Made by a program: the position numbers and the translations under genes. Below the pieces are notes generated by a model. It was not told the origin of the DNA. It worked only from the letters and a program-made list of their open reading frames with translations, and made no database searches. Shown here in pieces: positions 1 through 51,327 of a stretch of 64,000 nt of DNA. Position 1 is the first letter of the stretch. Every line of letters starts with the position of its first letter. Source of the DNA: Erythrobacter fulvus (GTDB lineage Bacteria; Pseudomonadota; Alphaproteobacteria; Sphingomonadales; Sphingomonadaceae); contig NZ_JAQQXQ010000001.1 in assembly GCF_028595285.1 (NCBI RefSeq), positions 270,308 to 334,307 of the forward strand. Direction: 5' to 3'.

Positions 1-931
1 TTGCGGCGTCGCCCACGAACACGATCTTGTAGTCGTGCCCGTATTTGTGGAGCACATCCCAGGTCGTGGTGCGTTCCTGCCAGCGGCGCTTGTTGTCCTT
101 CCACACACCTTCGTAGAGGCAGTTGTGGAAGTAGAAGAATTCTAGGTTCTTGAACTCCGCGGTGGCGGCGCTGAACAGCTCTTCGACCAGCTTGATGAAG
201 GGGTCCATCGATCCGCCGACATCGAGGAACAGCAGCAGTTTGACGGCATTGCGCCGTTCGGGGCGCATCCTGATGTCGAGCCAGCCCTGCTTGGCGGTGC
301 CTTCAATCGTGCCGGGAATGTCGAGCTCGTCCGCCGCGCCTTCGCGCGCGAAACGGCGCAGACGGCGTAGCGCCATCTTGATGTTGCGGGTGCCCAATTC
401 CTTGGTGTTGTCGAGGTTCTTGAACTCGCGCTTTTCCCACACCTTGATCGCACGGCGGTGCTTGCTCTCGCCGCCGATGCGCACGCCTTCGGGGTTGTAG
501 CCCGAATTGCCGAAGGGGCTGGTGCCCCCGGTGCCGATCCACTTGTTGCCGCCCTGGTGGCGCTTTTCCTGTTCCTCGAGCCGCTTTTTCAGCGTCTCCA
601 TGATCTCGTCCCAGTCGCCCAGCGACTTGATCTTCTCCATTTCCTCCGGGGTCAGGAATTTCTCGGCAACGGCCTTTAGCCAGTCTTCGGGAATGTCGAC
701 GGGGTTCTGGCCGTAATCGGTCATGATCCCCTTGAACACCTTGTGGAACACCTGGTCGAACCGGTCGAGCAGGCCTTCATCCTTCACGAAGGTGGCGCGG
801 GAGAGATAGTAGAACGCCTCGGGCGTCTGCTCGATCACGTCCTTGTCGAGCGCCTCCAGCAAGGTGAGGTGCTCTTTGAAACTGGCCCCGATACCCGCGG
901 CCCGCAGCTCGTCGACGAAATTGAAGAACAT
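1..931 (-). CDS. VWA domain-containing protein, CoxE family (3' end outside window)
   Basis: The reading frame opens with ATG at 931 and runs off the left edge, so 310 residues are visible. The N-terminal part (about 1-120) is mostly helical and charged. A Gly-rich stretch (GGNKWIGTGGTSPFGNSGYN) follows near residue 140, and a von Willebrand A fold starts near residue 235 with LLLFLDVGGSMDPF. This is a MIDAS-like motif in which the usual DxSxS reads DVGGS. CoxE-type VWA proteins normally work with a MoxR AAA+ ATPase as a chaperone or metal-insertion-like pair. A moxR gene lies on the same strand about 2.3 kb away, separated by two unrelated genes. Specific substrate unknown. Confidence 0.88.
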   Translation of the reverse strand, partial: MFFNFVDELRAAGIGASFKEHLTLLEALDKDVIEQTPEAFYYLSRATFVKDEGLLDRFDQVFHKVFKGIMTDYGQNPVDIPEDWLKAVAEKFLTPEEMEKIKSLGDWDEIMETLKKRLEEQEKRHQGGNKWIGTGGTSPFGNSGYNPEGVRIGGESKHRRAIKVWEKREFKNLDNTKELGTRNIKMALRRLRRFAREGAADELDIPGTIEGTAKQGWLDIRMRPERRNAVKLLLFLDVGGSMDPFIKLVEELFSAATAEFKNLEFFYFHNCLYEGVWKDNKRRWQERTTTWDVLHKYGHDYKIVFVGDAA

Positions 932-1064
932 GGGCCGACGCTTACCCCGCTCCTTCGCCCCTGACCAGTCCCCATTCTTGAGGGGTAAAAGGGCTTTCGC
1001 TTAACGCTTCGCTTACCATCGCGGGGCTACAGCGCTTGCGACAAATCAGGGGCCGCACACCACC

Positions 1065-2465
1065 ATGAAACAGATCGCGATCGACACCGCCAATGCCTAT
1101 GCTCTGGGAATGATTCCCGAGAGTTGCGGTGCGGTGACGGTGGGCTGCACCGACGTGGCGGGCGTGGTCGAAGCCGTGATCGCTTCATCCAAGACGCTGC
1201 GTTCCGAACACGAAGCGCTGGCGGAGACAGTTCGCGCGCTTGAGGCTGACCAGACCAAAGTTGCCGAAGCGAGCGACGAGGCGCGAATCCTCTCCGAACG
1301 CGCGATCGACCGGCTGAATGAAGGCACGGCGCTGATCCAGTCCTCGCTCGGGCAGATCGCCTCGCTGATCGAACTGGTCGAAACACTGGGCCAGCACGTC
1401 ACCAGCTTTTCTGCCGCGATGGAGCAGGTGCGCCGCAGTGCGCAGGACATCGACAATATCGCCGAGACGACCAATATCCTCGCGCTGAACGCCACGATCG
1501 AGGCGATGCGCGCAGGCGACGCGGGCCGCACCTTCGCGGTGGTGGCGAGCGAGGTGAAGAGCCTTGCCAGCGATACCCGCAAAGCGACCGAGGAAATCGC
1601 CCAGACCATCGATGCGCTGGGAGGCGAAGCGGAGATGGTGATCGGTCGCATCGAGGCGGGCGCCAAGGCAAGCGGCGAGGCCAAGGCATCGGTCGCACGG
1701 ATCGAAAGCACCATTGCCAGCGTCGGGGGGCTTGTCGAAGAGGTGGATAAGCAGAACGACGTCATCGCCCGTTCGACCGGCACGATCTCCGGCCATGTCG
1801 ACAAGGTGCAGCGCGTGCTGACCAGCTTCGATGCTGCCGCGCGCAGCAACGAGGACCGGCTCCACGGCGCGTATCGCAAGATGGAGGAGCTGGAATTTAC
1901 CGCCAGCGAGATGTTCGATCGGATCGTGCAGGCCGGGCTCAGCCCCGAAGACAGTGCGATGGTCGAACAGGCGCAGCAGATGATGCAGGAAGTGGCCGCA
2001 CATACCGAGGCGGCTCTGGCCTCCGGCGCGCTGACGATGACTGCGCTGTTCGATACCGATTACGTCCCCGTTCCCGGCACCAACCCGCAGCTGTTCCGCA
2101 CCCGGTTGACCGACTGGGCCCATGCCGAATGGCGTCCGTTCCTCGATCGGGCGAAGGCAGGTGACTCGCGGGTTTTAGCTGCGGCTTGCACCGACATGAA
2201 CGGCTTCCTGCCGACCCACCTGACAGAACGTTCGCGCACGCCGACGGGGGACATCAACCACGACACGCAGTTCTGCCGCAACGGGCGCATCATGCTCGAA
2301 GCGATCGACCGCAAGGCAAAGGAAAGCCGTGCCCCCTACATGATGGCGGTCTATCGTCAGGAAGGCGACGGCGACAGCTATGTGGTGGTTCGTAACGTCT
2401 ATGTCCCGCTGGTGATCGGCGGACGGCGCTGGGGCGATTTCGAGCTGGCTTACAGCTTCGACTGA
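1065..2465 (+). CDS. Soluble methyl-accepting chemotaxis-like protein
   Basis: 466 aa with no transmembrane segment, so it is probably a cytoplasmic chemoreceptor. Residues about 50-300 are a long coiled coil containing the signalling hairpin tip of MCPs ([20 protein letters not shown], then [12 protein letters not shown], about 134-170). This is the region that docks CheA/CheW. The N-terminus has a small Cys-containing segment ([10 protein letters not shown]). The C-terminal 130 residues (from [16 protein letters not shown]) form a separate globular domain seen at the end of some other soluble MCP-like proteins and probably a sensor. No che genes are nearby. It sits on the opposite strand between a MoxR operon and its likely VWA partner. 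The MCP identity is firm; the ligand is unknown. Confidence 0.85.
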
Positions 2466-41054: not shown

Positions 41055-41069
41055 TTGGCGGACAGGGTG
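41055..41069. repeat. attL: duplicated tRNA-Ser 3' end
   Basis: TTGGCGGACAGGGTG, identical to 51237-51251. Only the last part of the tRNA is duplicated here; the sequence diverges at once after it (TCCTCC versus GGATTC). It lies 12 nt after the methyltransferase stop and 166 nt before the integrase ATG. Confidence 0.88.
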
Positions 41070-41176: not shown

Positions 41177-41223
41177 TGTTCCCATAAAAACACCGATCCA
41201 ATTGGGGAGCGGTTTTGGGAACA
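41177..41223. promoter_or_regulatory. Inverted repeat upstream of the integrase gene
   Basis: TGTTCCC (41177-41183, followed by an A-rich run) and GGGAACA (41217-41223, preceded by TTTT) are exact inverted arms, with CCAATTGG (41198-41205) between them. Position just before the integrase ATG suggests an integrase arm site or an autoregulatory operator. Confidence 0.55.
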
Positions 41224-41235
41224 GAGGCAAAATCT

Positions 41236-42483
41236 ATGCCGCGCAAACTGCACAACGCTCTCACCGCGCAATCGGTTAAGCACGCGAAGCCGGGTCGCCA
41301 TGCCGATGGAGGCGGGCTTTATTTGCTGGTGAAAGAGGGCGGGGCGCGCTCCTGGGTTTATCGCTTCATGCTCAAGGGCAAGTCGCGGGACATTGGCCTA
41401 GGTCCGGCTGGCCCCGGCGGTATATCGCTTGCCGAAGCCCGCGATCTGGCGACCGCGCTTCGTCTCAAGGTCAAGGCGGGCATTGATCCGCTGGAGGAAC
41501 GGCAACGCGCCGAGGCCGAGGCAAAGGCGGCGGAACAGGCGGCGAAGGTCGCTGGAATTACGTTCAGGGCCATGGCCGAAACCCATATCGCGGCGAACAA
41601 GGAAAGCTGGCGCAATGCCAAGCACCGCCAGCAATGGGAGAACACGCTCAAGACCTATGCCTATCCGGTGATTGGCGATCTGCCGGTTGCCGAGGTCGAT
41701 ACCCCACATGTGCTCAAGGTGCTGGAGCCGATCTGGCGCGAGGTTCCCGAAACCGCCAGCCGGTTGAGGGGCCGAATTGAAACCGTGCTCGATAGCGCCA
41801 AGGCGCGCGGATACCGCCAAGGCGAAAACCCCGCCCGCTGGCGGGGACACTTGGCGCAAATCCTCCCCGCCCGCACGAAGCTGTCACGCGGCCATCACAA
41901 GGCCATGCCGTATGACGCGATCCCCGCCTTCGTGGAGCAGTTGCAAGCGCGGGAGGCGGTTGCGGCGCTGGCGCTGGAGTTTGTCATTCTTACCGCCGCG
42001 CGGACTGGCGAGGTTATCGCCGCCGAGTGGAGCGAGGTAGATCTGGCCAAGGCTGTTTGGACGGTGCCAGCCGAGCGCATGAAGGCGGGCAAGGAGCACC
42101 GCGTTCCCTTATCCCCGCGCGCGGTTGAGATACTGGAGCAAACGAAGCAACTGGGCGGCAAGCACCTGTTTCCCGGCGCTGGGCGCGCCAAGCTGTCCAG
42201 CATGGCCATGGCGATGCTGCTTCGCCGCATGAAGCAGGACGTTACGGTTCACGGTTTCCGGTCCGCGTTCCGCGACTGGGCCGCGGAATGCACCGGCTAT
42301 TCTCACGAGGTCGCTGAAATGGCGCTGGCGCATACTATCGGCAACGCGGTGGAGCGGGCCTATCGGCGCGGCGATCTGTTCGAGAAGCGGCGGCGGCTGA
42401 TGGCTGATTGGGCGACCTATTGCGCGAGCGGCGCTCCTGCTGGCGGGAAGATCACTCCCATCAACGTTCAATCTGCCGCTTAG
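41236..42483 (+). CDS. P4-type tyrosine integrase (DUF4102 N-terminal domain)
   Basis: 415 aa from ATG 41236 (GAGG at 41223-41226). The N-terminal arm-binding domain (GRHADGGGLYLLVKEGGARS, then GLGPAGPGGISLAEARD) is the DUF4102 type found in islands that use tRNA genes. A core-binding domain (about 110-205) and the catalytic domain follow, with R256 in TAARTGEVIAAEW, H339-x-x-R342 in VHGFRSAFRDW, H366 and nucleophile Y376 in VERAYRRGDL. It catalyses integration at the 3' end of tRNA-Ser and sits beside attL. Confidence 0.95.
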   Translation: MPRKLHNALTAQSVKHAKPGRHADGGGLYLLVKEGGARSWVYRFMLKGKSRDIGLGPAGPGGISLAEARDLATALRLKVKAGIDPLEERQRAEAEAKAAEQAAKVAGITFRAMAETHIAANKESWRNAKHRQQWENTLKTYAYPVIGDLPVAEVDTPHVLKVLEPIWREVPETASRLRGRIETVLDSAKARGYRQGENPARWRGHLAQILPARTKLSRGHHKAMPYDAIPAFVEQLQAREAVAALALEFVILTAARTGEVIAAEWSEVDLAKAVWTVPAERMKAGKEHRVPLSPRAVEILEQTKQLGGKHLFPGAGRAKLSSMAMAMLLRRMKQDVTVHGFRSAFRDWAAECTGYSHEVAEMALAHTIGNAVERAYRRGDLFEKRRRLMADWATYCASGAPAGGKITPINVQSAA

Positions 42484-43887: not shown

Positions 43888-44592
43888 TTATCTTCGTGGC
43901 AGGGGCTCACAAGCGATCCCGTCGCCATCTCCATCCATCTCCGGTCTGTAACCGGGCTGTCCCCTACGAAGTGGCGCAGCACCCGCCGCCCGTGCTTCCT
44001 TACAGTTGCGGAAATATGTTCCCGATCTGGCCGGGTTGGCAGGGCGATAAGGCACGGAGGTTTGCGCCCGCTCTCGCTGAAGTTGCCGTTCCAGCGACGC
44101 TACCTCGGCACGATAACCCGGATCGTTCGCGCGAAAATCTGCCGGAGCCTGAAACTCTCCCGACCAGATACCCAGCCGGCCAGACTTAGCCGCTTCCGCT
44201 GCTGGCACGTAATCCGAGCCGAACTGATCAAGCGCTACAGCATAGCCCGCTCGTGCGATTGCATCCGAGAGGTCCAGCCTTGCGACGGAACAGGTCGCCA
44301 CTGACCTGCCATACTTGTCGGTATCGCGCTGGCGGCAAGAAACGCGATTGTCGGCAACCAAGGCTTGCAGCAGGGCCTTTGCATCCTCGCCACATGCCCA
44401 TGCTTGACCGTCACGAGTGCAAGTCTGAGCACGCTCGGGCGCATCGATACCGAACAGACGGACGCGCTCGCCGCCGAAGTCCAAGGTATCGCCATCGACC
44501 ACTCTTGGATTGCCATAGATGATTTGCGCTTGGCTGGGCGCAGCAAGGCAACAGGCGATGGCAACGAAAAGCGCATGGGTCGATCCGCGCAT
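43888..44592 (-). CDS. Secreted thermonuclease-like protein with C-terminal Excalibur domain
   Basis: 234 aa from ATG 44592; signal peptide to about AAPSQAQ. The SNase core has VVDGDTLDFGGERVRLFGID and APER (Ca-binding Asp, catalytic Arg and Glu), DTDKYGRSVATC with the second Arg, and AIARAGYAVA. After a linker (about 140-190) comes an Excalibur Ca-binding domain: YFRNCKEARAAGAAPLRRGQ and the EF-hand-like DGDGDGIACE. Probably an exported DNA/RNA nuclease. Cargo of the tRNA-Ser element. Confidence 0.88.
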   Translation of the reverse strand: MRGSTHALFVAIACCLAAPSQAQIIYGNPRVVDGDTLDFGGERVRLFGIDAPERAQTCTRDGQAWACGEDAKALLQALVADNRVSCRQRDTDKYGRSVATCSVARLDLSDAIARAGYAVALDQFGSDYVPAAEAAKSGRLGIWSGEFQAPADFRANDPGYRAEVASLERQLQRERAQTSVPYRPANPARSGTYFRNCKEARAAGAAPLRRGQPGYRPEMDGDGDGIACEPLPRR

Positions 44593-44753
44593 AATTTTCT
44601 GCCCCACTACAACGGCGGATACAAAACCGCCTTCGGTTTCCAACTTCCTCGCACTTATAGTAGTTTAGCCGCCGGGGATAGGCAGGCCAGCCGACAAGCG
44701 CGCATCCCACGTGCTTCCCCGCTTCATCCTTGGGAACCGCGAAGGGACGCGGG

Positions 44754-45392: not shown

Positions 45393-45418
45393 GGAGAAAA
45401 AGCGACCGGATTTTCTCC
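45393..45418. terminator. Hairpin directly after the AT-hook-like gene
   Basis: GGAGAAAA (45393-45400), loop AGCGACCGGA, TTTTCTCC (45411-45418): a perfect 8-bp stem starting right after the TAG codon. It is followed by C residues rather than a T-run, although the 3' arm itself has TTTT. A related copy of CCGAT..TTTTTCTCC follows at 45428-45444, so a repeat-based binding site is the alternative. Confidence 0.5.
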
Positions 45419-45457
45419 CCCCAAAAACCGATCAGTTTTTCTCCACCCGAAACTGGT

Positions 45458-45471: not shown

Positions 45472-45551
45472 CTACCTGCTATCCGTAAAGGCGATAAATA
45501 GTCTGCCCCATAAGCCCGAACAATCCCGTTCGCGCAACATGGGAGGTGCTA

Positions 45552-45740
45552 ATGCACCTGAATACAAACGACCCCCCGAAACTCGCCTATTCGATCCGCG
45601 AGGCGGTGGCAGCTACCAGCCTCAGCAAAACGACGCTCTACGCCAAGATTGCCGCGAATGAGTTGCGCGCTGTCCGCGTAGGCGGGCGGACCGTGATCCC
45701 GGCGGAATCGCTCCATGCGCTTATCCATGGGGAGGGCTGA
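45552..45740 (+). CDS. AlpA/excisionase-like helix-turn-helix protein
   Basis: 62 aa from ATG 45552, with GGGAGG five bases upstream. It is a MerR/excisionase-type winged helix: YSIREAVAATSLSKTTLYAK followed by IAANELRAVRVGGRTVIPAE. Such proteins (AlpA of P4-like elements, Xis) regulate integrase and excision. It opens a tight run of plus-strand genes leading to the primase and helicase. Confidence 0.85.
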   Translation: MHLNTNDPPKLAYSIREAVAATSLSKTTLYAKIAANELRAVRVGGRTVIPAESLHALIHGEG

Positions 45741-45743
45741 GCC

Positions 45744-45932
45744 ATGCCCGAAAAAAAGAAACCCCGGCAGGGTCGTGCCGAGGTCTCCTGCAATCAAGTT
45801 GGTGCCTGTTTGCAAGAGTCCCTTAGCCTTTCTGCTTATCGCGCTCAACACCTTATCGCCGAGCACGGCATTCGCCCGGACCTCGCTGTTATGGTGGCAA
45901 GCCTCGCATTCGGAGGGTATGGCCATGGCTAA
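45744..45932 (+). CDS. Small hypothetical protein
   Basis: 62 aa, starting 3 nt after the AlpA-like stop and ending 8 nt inside the next gene. Basic N-terminus (PEKKKPRQGR), then a helical middle (LSAYRAQHLIAEHGIRPDLA) and a Gly-rich end. No family recognised; the tight packing supports a real gene. Confidence 0.5.
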   Translation: MPEKKKPRQGRAEVSCNQVGACLQESLSLSAYRAQHLIAEHGIRPDLAVMVASLAFGGYGHG

Positions 45933-46236
45933 TCCCTATCCCGACGCACCCGGCGCGAAGGGGCCGGATGGCACCAGCCAAGAGGCGGCAGCTGCGATCC
46001 AACCGAGCGTGACGCGCCTTCGCCGCCTCGCCTTGCGGACGCTGGGCCAGCTGGGCGCTGCGACCGTGCTTGAAGCGGTCCCGGTCGCCGGAGTGCCGCG
46101 CGAAAGCCTCCAGCCGCGTTTCTCCGAACTCAGGGCCATGGGCCTTGTCGAAGCGACCGGCGAGCGGCGGCGCAACCCGAACGGCAAGAGCGCGGCTGTC
46201 CTGAGGCTGACGGATGAAGGGAGGGCAGCGCTATGA
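45925..46236 (+). CDS. Winged helix DNA-binding protein
   Basis: 103 aa from ATG 45925 (GGAGG at 45912-45916); ATG 45919 is also possible. The C-terminal 75 residues form a winged helix: SVTRLRRLALRTLGQLGAA, ESLQPRFSELRAMGLVEATG and a wing with basic residues before AAVLRLTDEGRAAL, like MarR-type or replication-associated wHTH proteins. It overlaps the primase-like gene by 4 bp (ATGA), suggesting a role in regulating or initiating element replication. Confidence 0.72.
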   Translation: MANPYPDAPGAKGPDGTSQEAAAAIQPSVTRLRRLALRTLGQLGAATVLEAVPVAGVPRESLQPRFSELRAMGLVEATGERRRNPNGKSAAVLRLTDEGRAAL

Positions 46237-47171
46237 GTGATCTTGTCTCCACCTTCATCGAAGCCATGCAAGCGGCTGGCATTCGCCCGCTGGAGCCTAT
46301 CGCGCACAAGCTGGCGGCGGGGCAACCTGTCCGGTTCCGTGCCGAGGGTGATAGGCCGGGGCGGCGCAACGGCTGGGCTGTGCTCCACTTGGACGGAGTG
46401 CCAGCCGGAGTCTTTCGCCATTACCGGCTGGGCATTCGATCGATCTGGCGCGCGGGGAGCGATCCTCGCGCGTTGGCACCAGCCGAGCGGCGCGCGATCA
46501 TGGCCAAGGCGAACGAAGCCGAGGCGCGGCGCAAGGCCGAGACGCGGGCGAAGCAGGATGCGGCGGCGAAGCAGGCTCAGGCGCTTTGGAAAGCGGCGAT
46601 AAGCGCGGAACCGGCCCATGGATACCTCACCGCCAAAAGCCTTGCCCCGTTCGGTATTCGGCAATCTGGCACGGCGCTGCTGGTGCCGATGTTCGATCCC
46701 GCTTTTAGGCTATGGAACCTCCAGCGCATTGCACCCGATGGCGGCAAGCGGTTCCTGTCTGGCGGGCGCATTGAGGGGCTGTTCTGGCCCCATGCGATGC
46801 ACCTCGCCGATGGCAGACCTTCGCCCGGTCCGCTGGTGATTGGCGAGGGCTTTGCAACCGTGGCGGCGATCCACGAGGCAACCGGCCATGCGGTCGCCGC
46901 CGCCATGTCCGCCCGCAACCTGGAGCCGGTCGCGCGGGCCATGCGCGGGCTGTTCCCGGCGCGGCAAATCATCATCGCGGCGGACAATGACTGTCACCTT
47001 GCCGAGAATATGGGCCTGAGACTCGCTAGGAAGGCCGCTGAGTCGATTGGCGGGCTTTTGGCTATTCCGAGACCTGAAACGTCCCGAGGTAATTCTGGGG
47101 CCGATTTTGCGGACCTCAGGCGCAATGAGGCGGCGGCGATCATCGCGGCAACCCTGAGAGGGGAGGCCTAG
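46233..47171 (+). CDS. Toprim domain protein, primase-like
   Basis: 312 aa. The N-terminal half has VRFRAEGDRPGRRNGWAVLH and a coiled, Ala/Lys-rich segment (about 88-120), then HGYLTAKSL as in plasmid/phage primase-helicase proteins. The Toprim fold follows: E205 in LVIGEGFATVAAIHEATG and D251-N-D253 in QIIIAADND. No N-terminal zinc finger is present. It probably primes or processes DNA for element replication with the helicase encoded 2 nt downstream. Confidence 0.85.
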   Translation: MSDLVSTFIEAMQAAGIRPLEPIAHKLAAGQPVRFRAEGDRPGRRNGWAVLHLDGVPAGVFRHYRLGIRSIWRAGSDPRALAPAERRAIMAKANEAEARRKAETRAKQDAAAKQAQALWKAAISAEPAHGYLTAKSLAPFGIRQSGTALLVPMFDPAFRLWNLQRIAPDGGKRFLSGGRIEGLFWPHAMHLADGRPSPGPLVIGEGFATVAAIHEATGHAVAAAMSARNLEPVARAMRGLFPARQIIIAADNDCHLAENMGLRLARKAAESIGGLLAIPRPETSRGNSGADFADLRRNEAAAIIAATLRGEA

Positions 47172-47173
47172 TC

Positions 47174-48310
47174 ATGGACGGAACAATACGCGCGCGCATG
47201 GACTTCGCGCAAATTGACCCCGGCGAGGCGAGTGAGGCCATAGCGGCGGCGGCTATCGAAACGCTCGATTGGGCGGCGCTGGCGAACGTCAAACCCGCGC
47301 CCAAGGCTTTCGTCATTCCCCTGCTGGCACCAGCCGGAGAGGTGACACTGTTCACCGGGCCGGGGAGCGCGGGCAAGTCGCTGCTGGCGCAACAGCTGGC
47401 AACCGCGCTGGCGGCTGGGGTGCCGACACTTCGTCTCGACATGGGGCAAGCCCCGGCGATCTATCTCACCTGCGAGGATGACGACGGGCAATTGCACTGG
47501 CGGCAAGCGCATATCTGCGAGGCGCTGGGCGTGCCGGTCGCCAGCCTAGCGGGCAGGCTGCACGTGGCGAGCCTGAGGGGCGCGCTCGATAACGCGCTAG
47601 GGACTGAGGGGCCGGACGGGGAGTTTACCCTGTCCCACGCCTATCATCGCCTCGCTGCCATGATCTGGCGCACCGGGGCCAAGCTGGTGGCGCTCGACAA
47701 CGTGGCGCACCTGTTCACCGGGAACGAGAACGACCGGGGCGCGGTGACGCGCTTCGTCAATGCGCTCAATCGGCTGGCAGGCGAGAGTGGGGCGGCCATC
47801 ATCCTGCTGGGCCATCCGAACAAGGCTGGGGACAGCTACTCAGGCTCCACGGCATGGCTAAACGCGGTCCGGTCGCAATTCGTGATCGAGCATGATCTGC
47901 AATCGGATATGCGGACGGTCACGGTCGGCAAGGCCAATTATTCCCGCAAGGGCGAGCAACTGCGCTTTGCTTGGGTGAATTGGGCCTTCGTGCTGGAGGA
48001 TGATCTACCGCCGGACGCGGCGCGCCAGCTGGCCGAAACCGCCAAGGCGCAAGCGGGGAATGATGCGTTCCTTAGATGCCTTGCGCTTTGCACTCAGCAA
48101 GGGCGGAACGTCTCACACAAGCCGGGAAGCAATTATGCTCCCAAGATATTCGCCGGAATGCCTGCGGCCAAGGCCATGAAGAAGCCCGAATTTGAAGCGG
48201 CAATGGAGCGGCTGCTGGGCCTCAATATCATCGAATGTGACGCGGATTTGTGGCGCGGCGATGATCGAAAGACCCGGCGTGGTATCCGGCTGGTGGAGGG
48301 CGGCGGATGA
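47174..48310 (+). CDS. RepA-like AAA/RecA-fold replicative helicase
   Basis: 378 aa. Walker A is TGPGSAGKSLLAQQLA (about 61-76), Walker B-like strands are AIYLTCEDDDGQLHWR and LVALDNVAHLFTGNENDRGA, and the later motif is GAAIILLGHPNKAGDSYSGS. This layout matches hexameric RepA (RSF1010-like) and phage/island AAA_25 ATPases. It follows the Toprim gene by 2 nt; the two make a mini replication module next to an iteron-like repeat cluster 350 bp downstream. Confidence 0.87.
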   Translation: MDGTIRARMDFAQIDPGEASEAIAAAAIETLDWAALANVKPAPKAFVIPLLAPAGEVTLFTGPGSAGKSLLAQQLATALAAGVPTLRLDMGQAPAIYLTCEDDDGQLHWRQAHICEALGVPVASLAGRLHVASLRGALDNALGTEGPDGEFTLSHAYHRLAAMIWRTGAKLVALDNVAHLFTGNENDRGAVTRFVNALNRLAGESGAAIILLGHPNKAGDSYSGSTAWLNAVRSQFVIEHDLQSDMRTVTVGKANYSRKGEQLRFAWVNWAFVLEDDLPPDAARQLAETAKAQAGNDAFLRCLALCTQQGRNVSHKPGSNYAPKIFAGMPAAKAMKKPEFEAAMERLLGLNIIECDADLWRGDDRKTRRGIRLVEGGG

Positions 48311-48357
48311 TGAAGCAGATTCAATGGAAGAGAACTTGCTGTGCAGGAGCAATTAAG

Positions 48358-48654
48358 ATGAGCCTTATCGAGCATACATTAGTCGCACTTGTGATTCTGG
48401 CACTTGTCGGATGGCTGACCAAAAACTGGTGGGCAGCTGCCGCTTTACCGTCTGGGTATTTCATCGGTCGGGAGGTGGCACAAGCTGAGTATCGTTGGAT
48501 TGAGACGTTTGGTGGTGGGCTGCGGGCAAATATGCCGTGGCACGCAGTATTCGATCTGCGTCTTTGGGAAAGCAGCGATCAGATTGCGGACTGGCTCGGA
48601 CCGGTTGCGGCATGCATCGCCGTTGCAGTTTGGGCCGACCGCTATCGCAAGTAG
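48358..48654 (+). CDS. Small phage-type membrane protein
   Basis: 98 aa from ATG 48358 (AGGAG at a good distance); an upstream ATG at 48307 overlaps the helicase stop. Hydrophobic segments are HTLVALVILALVGWLTKNWW, AAALPSGYFIGREVA and WLGPVAACIAVAVWA. The middle GREVAQAEYRWIETFGGGLR with ANMPWHAVFDLRLW resembles a conserved small membrane protein of phages and prophages. Function unknown; a holin-like role is only a guess. Confidence 0.65.
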   Translation: MSLIEHTLVALVILALVGWLTKNWWAAAALPSGYFIGREVAQAEYRWIETFGGGLRANMPWHAVFDLRLWESSDQIADWLGPVAACIAVAVWADRYRK

Positions 48655-48662
48655 GTATGCAA

Positions 48663-48784
48663 TGCGGCGACACCGAAGAGTGCGGCGACCCCCTTGCGGC
48701 GACCCCATGCGGCGAACGCGGCGACCCTTTCGCTTTTACCCTCGGCGATCTGTGCGGCGACCGTGCGGCAAAGGTGCGGCGACC
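48663..48784. repeat. Iteron-like cluster of TGCGGCGACC repeats
   Basis: Five copies of TGCGGCGAC(C/A) (48663, 48681, 48695, 48753, 48775) and four variants (48708, 48717, 48741, 48764), all in the same orientation, mostly 11-18 bp apart. They sit directly after the primase/helicase genes in a non-coding-looking gap, as origin iterons do. They could also encode a 48-aa Cys-Gly-Asp-repeat peptide from ATG 48657. Confidence 0.75.
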
Positions 48785-48852
48785 TCCCCCCTTACTAACG
48801 TAACGCGGGCGCGGCCTTGGGGGCCGCCGCGTCCCGCTAGAAAGGCTCAGAC

Positions 48853-49536
48853 ATGACGAAGGCAAAAGGCACTACCGGAGCGGCGAAGGCGAAACAGAAC
48901 GTTCTGGAGGCCGCGCCCATGGACGGCGAGAAGCGGGAGGCGACTTTAGCGCGGCTGGCGCTGGGGCCGGGGCCAAGGCACGCAACAGTCGGCAACAGCT
49001 ATGCTGCCAGCCTGTTCAGCGACAATCACCCGATGGACATTACCGCCAGCACCGGCGTTATCGGCGATGCCATGGAAAAGGCGAGACAAGGCGACAAGGC
49101 CTTTGCGAGCAACATTCTGGCCGCGCAAGCAGTGGCGCTCGATACGATGTTCACAGAACTGGCGCGCCGATCCGCCGTAAATATGGGCCAATATCTCGAT
49201 GCCAGCGAACGCTATATGCGGCTGGCGCTCAAGGCTCAGGCCAATTGCCGAGCGACACTGGAGGCGCTGGGCAAGCTGCACCAGCCGCGCGAGCAGACTG
49301 TGAAGCACGTTCACGTGAACGAAGGCGGGCAAGCGATTGTCGCCGATCAAATCAACCAGCACGCCGGGGGCAGGGAAAATGGAAAATCAAACGAACAATC
49401 CCTTGCAACCGGACCGGCTGGCGAAAGCCCCGCGATGCTTGGCGCGGACCCGCAAGGGAACGGAGTGCCAATCCCCGGCGGTGAAGGGCCGGAAGCGGTG
49501 CCGGATGCACGGTGGCACAAATCCCGGCGCGCCTAG
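48853..49536 (+). CDS. Conserved mobile-element protein of unknown function
   Basis: 227 aa. The middle (ALDTMFTELARRSAVNMGQY, LDASERYMRLALKAQANCRA, TLEALGKLHQPR) is a helical pattern common in island and prophage proteins that end in a low-complexity tail (here VHVNEGGQAIVADQINQHAG). Such genes are typically followed, as here, by a small HGG/GNRNA protein. The 3' end overlaps that gene in another frame over 158 bp. Function unknown. Confidence 0.75.
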   Translation: MTKAKGTTGAAKAKQNVLEAAPMDGEKREATLARLALGPGPRHATVGNSYAASLFSDNHPMDITASTGVIGDAMEKARQGDKAFASNILAAQAVALDTMFTELARRSAVNMGQYLDASERYMRLALKAQANCRATLEALGKLHQPREQTVKHVHVNEGGQAIVADQINQHAGGRENGKSNEQSLATGPAGESPAMLGADPQGNGVPIPGGEGPEAVPDARWHKSRRA

Positions 49537-49576
49537 GGGCAATCGCAATGCGTGGAAGCACGGCGCGCGATCTTGA
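49379..49576 (+). CDS. HGGxxPGxPxGNRNAxKHG-type small zinc-binding protein, probably C-terminally truncated
   Basis: 65 aa from ATG 49379, with AGGGA upstream. It has CLARTRKGTECQSPAV, then KRCRMHGGTNPGAPRGNRNA and WKHGARS, i.e. three Cys and a His likely to bind zinc and the signature common in prophage and island genes. It starts inside the preceding gene. Reading past the stop in another frame gives LKAVEAARILREIRMQ, similar to the usual C-terminal extension, so a frameshift near 49570 is likely. Confidence 0.75.
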   Translation: MENQTNNPLQPDRLAKAPRCLARTRKGTECQSPAVKGRKRCRMHGGTNPGAPRGNRNAWKHGARS

Positions 49577-51236: not shown

Positions 51237-51251
51237 TTGGCGGACAGGGTG
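51237..51251. repeat. attR: 3' end of the intact tRNA-Ser
   Basis: TTGGCGGACAGGGTG, identical to the left copy at 41055. On the minus strand it covers the CCA end, discriminator and 3' acceptor strand of the tRNA, so recombination restores an intact tRNA. Confidence 0.9.
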
Positions 51252-51327
51252 GGATTCGAACCCACGGTAGGCTTGCACCTACGGCGGTTTTCAAGACCGC
51301 TGCCTTAAACCACTCGGCCACCTGTCC
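51238..51327 (-). tRNA. tRNA-Ser (anticodon UGA)
   Basis: 90 nt including an encoded CCA. Acceptor GGACAGG pairs with CCTGTCC, G is the discriminator, the anticodon stem GCGGT/ACCGC encloses CTTGAAA (anticodon TGA), a long variable arm typical of serine tRNA follows (CGTAGGTGCAAGCCTACG-like stem), and the T loop is GTTCGAATC. The element at 41055-51251 is inserted at its 3' end. Confidence 0.97.

Follow-up and report, generated by a model that had tools for sequence, protein, structure and literature searches.

Direct repeats and hairpins behind a RepA-type helicase gene in an Erythrobacter fulvus island: a probable replication origin read by the helicase encoded just upstream

What is the function of a cluster of short direct repeats that lies just behind the replication genes of a bacterial island? 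The question is raised by a stretch of 64,000 nucleotides from Erythrobacter fulvus (RefSeq assembly GCF_028595285.1, contig NZ_JAQQXQ010000001.1, positions 270,308 to 334,307), which is referred to here as the window and from whose first letter all positions are counted. A sequence-only reading of the window had noticed nine repeats after a helicase gene and had left two explanations for them, origin iterons or a peptide of repeated Cys-Gly-Asp tripeptides. We consider it likely that the repeats, together with the hairpins that follow them, form the replication origin of the island, and that the helicase encoded upstream acts as its initiator through a C-terminal winged helix.

Direct repeats and hairpins 3' of the helicase gene

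The gene for the proposed initiator, a RepA/AAA_25-type helicase (47174–48310, + strand; Pfam AAA_25, 4.7e-32), is followed by an open reading frame (ORF) of 115 aa (48307–48654, +; phrog_1443) and then by an array of nine units of TGCGGCGACC (48663–48784, +), with starts at 48663, 48681, 48695, 48708, 48717, 48741, 48753, 48764 and 48775. Four units are exact (48681, 48695, 48753 and 48775); those at 48663, 48708 and 48717 bring the copies with at most one mismatch to seven, and the count of nine depends on two poorer copies with three mismatches each (48741 and 48764). TGCGGCGAC and the overlapping GCGGCGACC are the sole + strand 9-mers with at least four copies within 150 bp in the whole window, and among 100 simulated windows of the same composition (50 at each of two Markov orders) the maximum was two TGCGGCGA per 150 bp. 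The repeats noticed earlier are thus real, nine by the looser count, and several near-identical copies stand beside a replication gene, as in an iteron origin. Successive units are 18, 14, 13, 9, 24, 12, 11 and 11 bp apart, with a gap dividing the array 5 + 4; the spacer within it (48725–48739), a possible melting site, has an A+T content of 53%, compared with 40% for the final 400 bp of the helicase gene. Beyond the extent of the earlier observation lie a small inverted repeat with a 4-bp stem, TTAC-TAAC-GTAA (hairpin 1, 48792–48803), and a GC-rich hairpin, GGGCGCGGC-10 nt-GCCGCGTCC, with one mismatch (hairpin 2, 48807–48834).

The coding alternative starts from a feature that is present as claimed, a frame open for 48 codons from ATG 48657. 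In the two closest relatives, the Sphingomonadales metagenome-assembled genome Ga0077531 (L031; helicase 86% identical) and G041 (73%), the array aligns without gaps, keeps the window's spacing from 48681 on and directly follows the helicase gene, the 115-aa ORF not being found at that place. In L031, a stop lies right in front of the repeats in the Cys-Gly-Asp frame, which also lacks a start codon before them; in G041 the frame is broken internally by a TAG. Among homologues the unit spacing shifts the frame: 234 spacings are spread evenly over the three remainders on division by three (79, 84 and 71 with remainder 0, 1 and 2), so that the alignment check suggested by the earlier reading finds no reading frame kept. 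With the stop and missing start in L031, the internal stop in G041 and the frame-shifting spacing, a Cys-Gly-Asp peptide is ruled out for practical purposes. Of the two explanations first offered, the peptide fell on L031 and G041, and the iterons held, by their frame-shifting spacing and by the repeats found at homologous helicases.

Relative to the helicase reading frame, the array lies inside at 27 of 41 loci, across at 9 and after at 5. Spacings of up to 16 bp average 11.5 bp, and the run 11, 13, 9 or 10 recurs in 13 of the 41 loci, with differing units. Between the window and L031 or G041, the array differs at 18 and 26 of 109 bases and the stretch behind it at 0 and 3 of 54.

Recurrence at homologous helicases and the specificity of the unit

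Helicase homologues were gathered in overlapping searches of 114 to 397 genomes each and one contig scan, and the 44 closest loci were taken. Under a rule asking for at least five copies of an 8-mer with at most one mismatch in a 130-bp span, between 150 bp before and 450 bp after the alignment end, arrays were found at 39 of the 44 loci. Applied within the helicase gene, this rule gave 2 of 44, both from one record (L087 and L031), and a control stretch farther downstream gave none of 44; in dinucleotide-shuffled 400-bp sequences (20 per locus) the mean was about 2.4 to 3.4 copies and the maximum five. Five loci missed the rule: in L102, L004 and L013, diverged units and the hairpin can be made out by eye, L089 lacks one copy, and the alignment of L019 is short (L019, the duplicate record L087 and L095, which has the L005 array, are omitted from some counts). 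With both rules unchanged, the best 80 of 352 viral relatives carried arrays on 64 contigs, hairpin 1 on 42 and both on 41; for arrays and hairpin 1 alike the controls gave 0/80 inside the helicase and 1/78 downstream, the far control being positioned slightly differently in the two sets. Five of these viral helicases are at least 95% identical to the first set, and five other loci have one identical downstream sequence; once viral loci with helicases at least 90% identical to the first set or to each other are removed, arrays remain at 52 of 62 and hairpin 1 at 35 of 62, with controls at 0 and 0. Repeats are thus present beside homologous rep genes, whose lack of them the sequence-only reading had named as a finding that would speak against its proposal. 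At class level, with a longer search stretch, arrays occur in three of six loci with enough downstream sequence (L241, L243 and L244); L241, which belongs to another family of this class, shows seven repeats of TGGCGGAG together with a TAC-loop hairpin of 9 bp and, by eye, a second hairpin. An Azospirillum replicon has six CTACGAAC-type repeats and both hairpins by eye. Units vary across loci and are near-uniform within one locus; they include CCGGAAACC, CCCGAAC, GCACAAC, GCACCAACC, TGCGGGAAAC, CCGATGACC and CCGCTGACC. Very probably, the helicase encoded just upstream docks on the repeats, which would form a start site for replication that recurs, with other unit sequences, next to related helicases of many phages and mobile islands.

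Hairpin 1 recurs with the array. In 37 hand-anchored loci it lies 9–39 bp after the last unit, with the loops TAC (17), TAAA (12), TAAC (4), TATA (2), AAAT (1) and TTC (1); L013 was kept apart, since the program misplaced its array. The inner five pairs are 97.8% Watson–Crick, a count for which the anchors were chosen by us and the stem finder takes the best stem nearby, and with arms exchanged among loci the figure averaged 42.5% and never exceeded 56.8% over 1000 trials. Pairing was counted on hand-anchored segments because a MAFFT alignment of the hairpins misplaced some stems. A blind scan (stem of at least 5, loop TAC, TAAA or TAAC) recovered hairpin 1 in 32 of 43 loci; among 860 shuffles it scored four times, and neither of two control stretches gave a hit at any of the 43 loci. 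The second, G+C-rich hairpin reaches a score of at least 6 in 35 of the 37 loci; it is less certain, because 202 of 740 mononucleotide shuffles score as high. When folded as DNA, the window's hairpins are no better than shuffles (z -1.03), and those of L015 are much better (z -5.10).

With the 198-bp region carrying array and hairpins, matches at E 0.01 came from 80 of 397 genomes and were convincing only in its own genome and G041 and, in part, in G286, the others being short and near the threshold. No viral contig sharing the exact hairpin core TTACTAACGTAACGCG was found, and Rfam gave nothing over the array and hairpins and, at gathering level across 15 sources, only tRNAs. Thirteen viral contigs retrieved with the TGCGGCGACC pattern were set aside unused, L062 and L064 with repeats in alanine-rich coding sequence and the other 11 by eye. 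The long alanine-rich repeat ORFs concerned (L064 5080–6603 and L062 6711–7421), whose DNA consists of TGCGGCGAC-like words, are a coding look-alike of iterons.

The helicase offers a candidate reader of the unit. Its core is of the type found in RSF1010: the profile of RSF1010 RepA (1g8y) matches with E 9.5e-21 over profile positions 12–256 of 354, RSF1010 RepA chains are the best fold matches of the helicase model, and the matches listed in searches of solved structures include RSF1010 RepA and other RecA-type motors. Behind the motor, codons 280–373 (48011–48292, +) encode a domain predicted with a mean pLDDT (predicted local distance difference test) of 86.8, with helices at 280–309, 322–327 and 337–349, a strand at 353–361, a wing, and a strand at 367–373; we read this predicted secondary structure as a winged helix and propose it as the iteron reader. 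Similarity between units follows similarity between C-terminal domains after correction for the motor (partial r 0.44 in 41 loci, reached by 0 of 5000 permutations; 0.38 in 91 loci, 0 of 2000; 0.38 in the 50 viral loci only), and the reverse partials for the motor are 0.15, 0.09 and 0.06 in the same three sets. For the 91-locus test, 57 of the best 65 viral loci passed the length and array filters, the 15 weakest viral loci were not used, and 7 of 98 proteins were dropped at 95% identity or more; owing to the array filter, it concerns array-bearing loci only. Natural exchanges point the same way: L010 and L106, with 82% identity in the motor and 33% in the winged helix, differ in their units, and L007 and L098, with 43% and 88%, respectively, have an identical unit.

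The alignment column that best tracks the unit (partial r 0.49) is codon 364, an Asp in the wing (48263–48265, +), followed by columns 365, 355, 366, 315, 320 and 362. Residue 364 is Asp in 18 of 19 loci with TGCGGG and 2 of 3 with TGCGGC, Asn in 20 of 22 with TGC[A/G]CC and 8 of 9 with TGCAC(A), Glu in 16 of 21 with CCGNNRAC, Lys in 5 of 8 with YCCGAAC and 3 of 3 with CCCCAAAC, and Ser in 3 of 4 with GCACAAC, two loci being unclassed; these unit classes were set after the units had been seen, and related loci are not independent. L107 and L013, which the word rules filed under TGC[A/G]CC and whose true units lie elsewhere, were counted as misses. Our best reading is that the helicase recognizes, through its winged helix, an origin 3' of its own gene.

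Weighing the explanations

Several observations weigh against a helicase-read origin, or narrow its reach. In 41 loci, 12 of 5000 permutations attained the reverse partial of 0.15, which suggests that the motor may exert a small effect of its own, and joint transfer by recombination could alone yield part of the covariation, because the array and the winged-helix codons are neighbours. The window's own hairpin 1, with four pairs, fails the strict rule and is among the 11 misses of the blind scan. In 26 loci, spacers of at least 12 bp have a mean A+T content of 46% and the gene one of 40%, the spacer value being the higher in 18 of these loci; we found no clear A+T-rich stretch, which leaves the A+T-rich spacer a weak candidate for the melting site. 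Among 11 weaker loci (L020–L030, the weakest of 30 in one search, initially left out and tested at the end), one has an array and none has hairpin 1; only 2 of the 15 weakest viral loci (L219–L233) have arrays, and at class level L239, L240 and L246 have none, L242 and L245 ending too soon to judge. On the result for L020–L030, the feature belongs to this helicase branch and not to AAA_25 proteins at large. Further, another frame runs open to the same TAA in the window, L031 and G041, with an ATG in G041 only, and most of its changes fall at third positions (at positions 1, 2 and 3, respectively: 4, 5 and 9 for window–L031; 6, 10 and 13 for window–G041; 4, 9 and 14 for L031–G041), so that, judged on these three closest loci alone, a short peptide in that frame may exist.

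Other functions for the same DNA have to be weighed against these data. Since cosB contains repeats, the array and hairpins could be a packaging start (cos or pac), with the repeats bound by a small terminase. We surveyed 41 regions of up to 19 kb, chosen for holding the helicase. HNH, terminase, portal or capsid clusters, each with one member named by Pfam, lie within about 9 kb in 14 of them, and a 79-aa ORF of the island (HGG ORF) weakly matches terminase small subunits. Arrays of at least five units are nevertheless present in 25 of the 27 regions without such genes within that distance (6 of 6 with a relative of the island's 227-aa downstream ORF and 19 of 21 with neither), compared with 14 of 14 with them, and the unit tracks the C-terminal domain of the helicase; a packaging site therefore appears unlikely. 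It is quite unlikely, too, that the region is a leader controlling the downstream gene, in which hairpins would hide a ribosome site or end transcription and repeats would bind a regulator. The hairpin region does reach the ribosome site of the next ORF in the window and both relatives, almost unchanged as noted above, + strand RNA can pair with that site, and the minus strand is more stably folded than its shuffles (z -2.69); however, sequence and genes behind the array vary between loci, the + strand RNA has no folding advantage over shuffles (z 1.68 over the full region, -1.06 over the hairpins), and a terminator-like site was looked for and none was found. Finally, array and winged helix might merely travel together by recombination, the repeats having another role or none. 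The two are neighbours, and motors and C-terminal domains seem to have been recombined, but units stay matched despite drift of the winged helix (L093 and L094, 70% identical there, have the same unit), one wing residue in particular tracks the unit, and a hairpin with a covarying stem would be left unexplained; we regard mere co-travel as very unlikely.

Returning to an origin read by its own helicase, we suggest that the C-terminal winged helix would bind repeats spaced about 11 bp apart and so bring several subunits of the helicase to the 3' end of the gene that encodes them. Melting would follow binding, the helicase would load and unwind, and the Toprim primase of the island would most likely start or assemble at the hairpins in their single-stranded form. 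The sequences themselves show the array, hairpin 1, where these lie, their recurrence at many loci and the covariation between unit and winged helix; binding, melting, priming and replication itself we infer. More broadly, we are somewhat inclined to think that self-encoded origins of this type are widespread in alphaproteobacterial prophages and satellites, where a RepA-type helicase may have gained a winged helix reading 9–10-bp sites 3' of its own gene under a wing rule (364 Asp with TGCGGG, Asn with TGC[A/G]CC, mostly Glu with CCGNNRAC), domain exchange would yield new specificities, the priming hairpin would be conserved in shape, and a diverged version may be present in Wolbachia phage WO. 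For many prophages and islands of Alphaproteobacteria, a candidate origin can be proposed along with a putative initiator whose recognition residue is predicted, and origin specificity and incompatibility between elements should be predictable, because the natural proteins differ in the reading domain. This would also be a case of a helicase whose origin specificity seems to have been changed by domain exchange and a single residue. No description of the origin type was found in the open-access literature, most subscription papers lying outside this scope, so an earlier description may exist.

The Wolbachia arrangement deserves separate mention. In phage WO (KX522565.1; L111, 4198–4440) and L235, eight TGGCAA/TTGCCA words in both orientations lie around and after the stop of the RepA/ATPase gene, followed by an A+T stretch that contains TATATA-TAAA-TATATA, a motif altered in L235, and by another hairpin, which folds as DNA with z -1.75; it is possible that this is a diverged form of the same origin type. 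The arrangement was not seen in WOVitA2 (L234), nor an array in the printed sequence of a Rhodoferax phage RepA locus (L236).

Known systems and the genes of the island

The comparison with P4 made in the sequence-only reading fits in layout and not in the motor, which is of the RSF1010 RepA type. Satellite P4 brings its own primase, helicase and origin recognition, its helicase being of another family; likewise, SaPI (Staphylococcus aureus pathogenicity island) Rep is probably of another helicase type than the RSF1010 RepA (AAA_25) motor here. In P4 alpha, helicase and primase are fused in one protein (PMC7145576), whereas here they are separate genes. In phage-inducible chromosomal islands (PICIs) and SaPIs, an origin made up of short direct repeats comes immediately after the initiator helicase gene, and SaPI Rep reads it with its C-terminal domain (PMC6092414, PMC7581432). 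The present island resembles them in the helicase-then-repeats layout (with primase and initiator preceding the candidate origin), in C-terminal specificity (here by covariation), in the adjoining primase gene and in carrying an integrase. PICI origins have two iteron sets around an A+T-rich region (PMC6092414), whereas here there is usually one array, sometimes gapped, with hairpins after it, and we do not file the island as a PICI.

Likeness to the incompatibility group Q (IncQ) plasmid RSF1010 extends to the RepA-type helicase, repeats and stem-loops, which in RSF1010 are used for priming; the hairpins here recall the single-strand initiation (ssi) sites of that plasmid. At the RSF1010 vegetative origin (oriV), though, a separate RepC reads the repeats, alongside RepA and RepB' (PMC4234260), while here a further domain follows where the RepA match ends, at profile position 256 of 354, and the primase is of the Toprim kind. 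In the plasmid pRN1 the origin also lies 3' of the gene for a replication protein ending in a winged helix, and a stem-loop is conserved in shape and not in sequence (PMC4234260); pRN1 differs in its one large stem-loop without iterons, its archaeo-eukaryotic primase domain and its superfamily 3 (SF3) helicase. The Cch2 helicase of the staphylococcal cassette chromosome SCCmec binds direct repeats just 3' of its own gene, differing in having only three iterons, a D5-type helicase and a staphylococcal cassette as its home (PMC7581432).

The island measures 10.2 kb, lies in tRNA-Ser and is flanked by an exact 15-bp repeat, TTGGCGGACAGGGTG, the left copy at 41055–41069 and the right at 51237–51251, the latter being the 3' end of tRNA-Ser(TGA) (51238–51327, - strand). 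A tyrosine integrase (41215–42483, +; Pfam Phage_integrase, Phage_int_M and Arm-DNA-bind_3) lies next to the left copy; integrases are also the commonest other protein cluster of the 41 surveyed regions (19 of 41), with other integrases in 8, names that rest on one match and our own reading. Upstream of the helicase gene come a small helix-turn-helix protein (45546–45740, +; Pfam HTH_17, 3.1e-8), which we take to be AlpA-like, an ORF (45715–46236, +) whose C-terminal part matches phrog_1123, of unknown function, and looks to us like a winged helix, and the Toprim primase (46233–47171, +; Pfam Toprim_3, 4.9e-13; PHROG DNA primase). The separate winged-helix ORF was rejected as a general reader of the repeats, with relatives near only 6 of 41 helicase homologues. 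Downstream of the hairpins stand the 227-aa ORF (48853–49536, +), whose relative (cluster 7) is likewise near only 6 of 41, and, overlapping it, the HGG ORF (49337–49576, +), whose weak match to terminase small subunits has an E value of about 1e-4 and whose stretch has DNA matches in other members of the genus too. A PHROG scan of ten island ORFs found no head or tail gene apart from the weak HGG matches, and on this account the island is likely a phage satellite or mobile island.

Some minor features were noted in passing. In L034 (G286, minus strand, 1501–2000), a copy of the 115-aa ORF is followed by a degenerate hairpin core without repeats, near what reads by eye like a tRNA gene; this suggests that ORF and core can occur together, possibly as the remnant of an element. 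Inside the island, a nuclease homologue with an Excalibur domain is encoded at 43888–44643 (- strand), and a similar-looking ORF lies in L031 at 818–1522 (-). Rfam matches in the island at E up to 1 comprise the tRNA, an overlapping plastid family and a sub-threshold int-alpA RNA at 44671–44735 (28.3 bits, gathering 35.8, E 0.015). The HTH_17 gene is closely preceded by a possible operator, the 26-bp tandem repeat AAAAACCGACCAGATTTTCTCCACCC (45397–45452, 2.2 copies).
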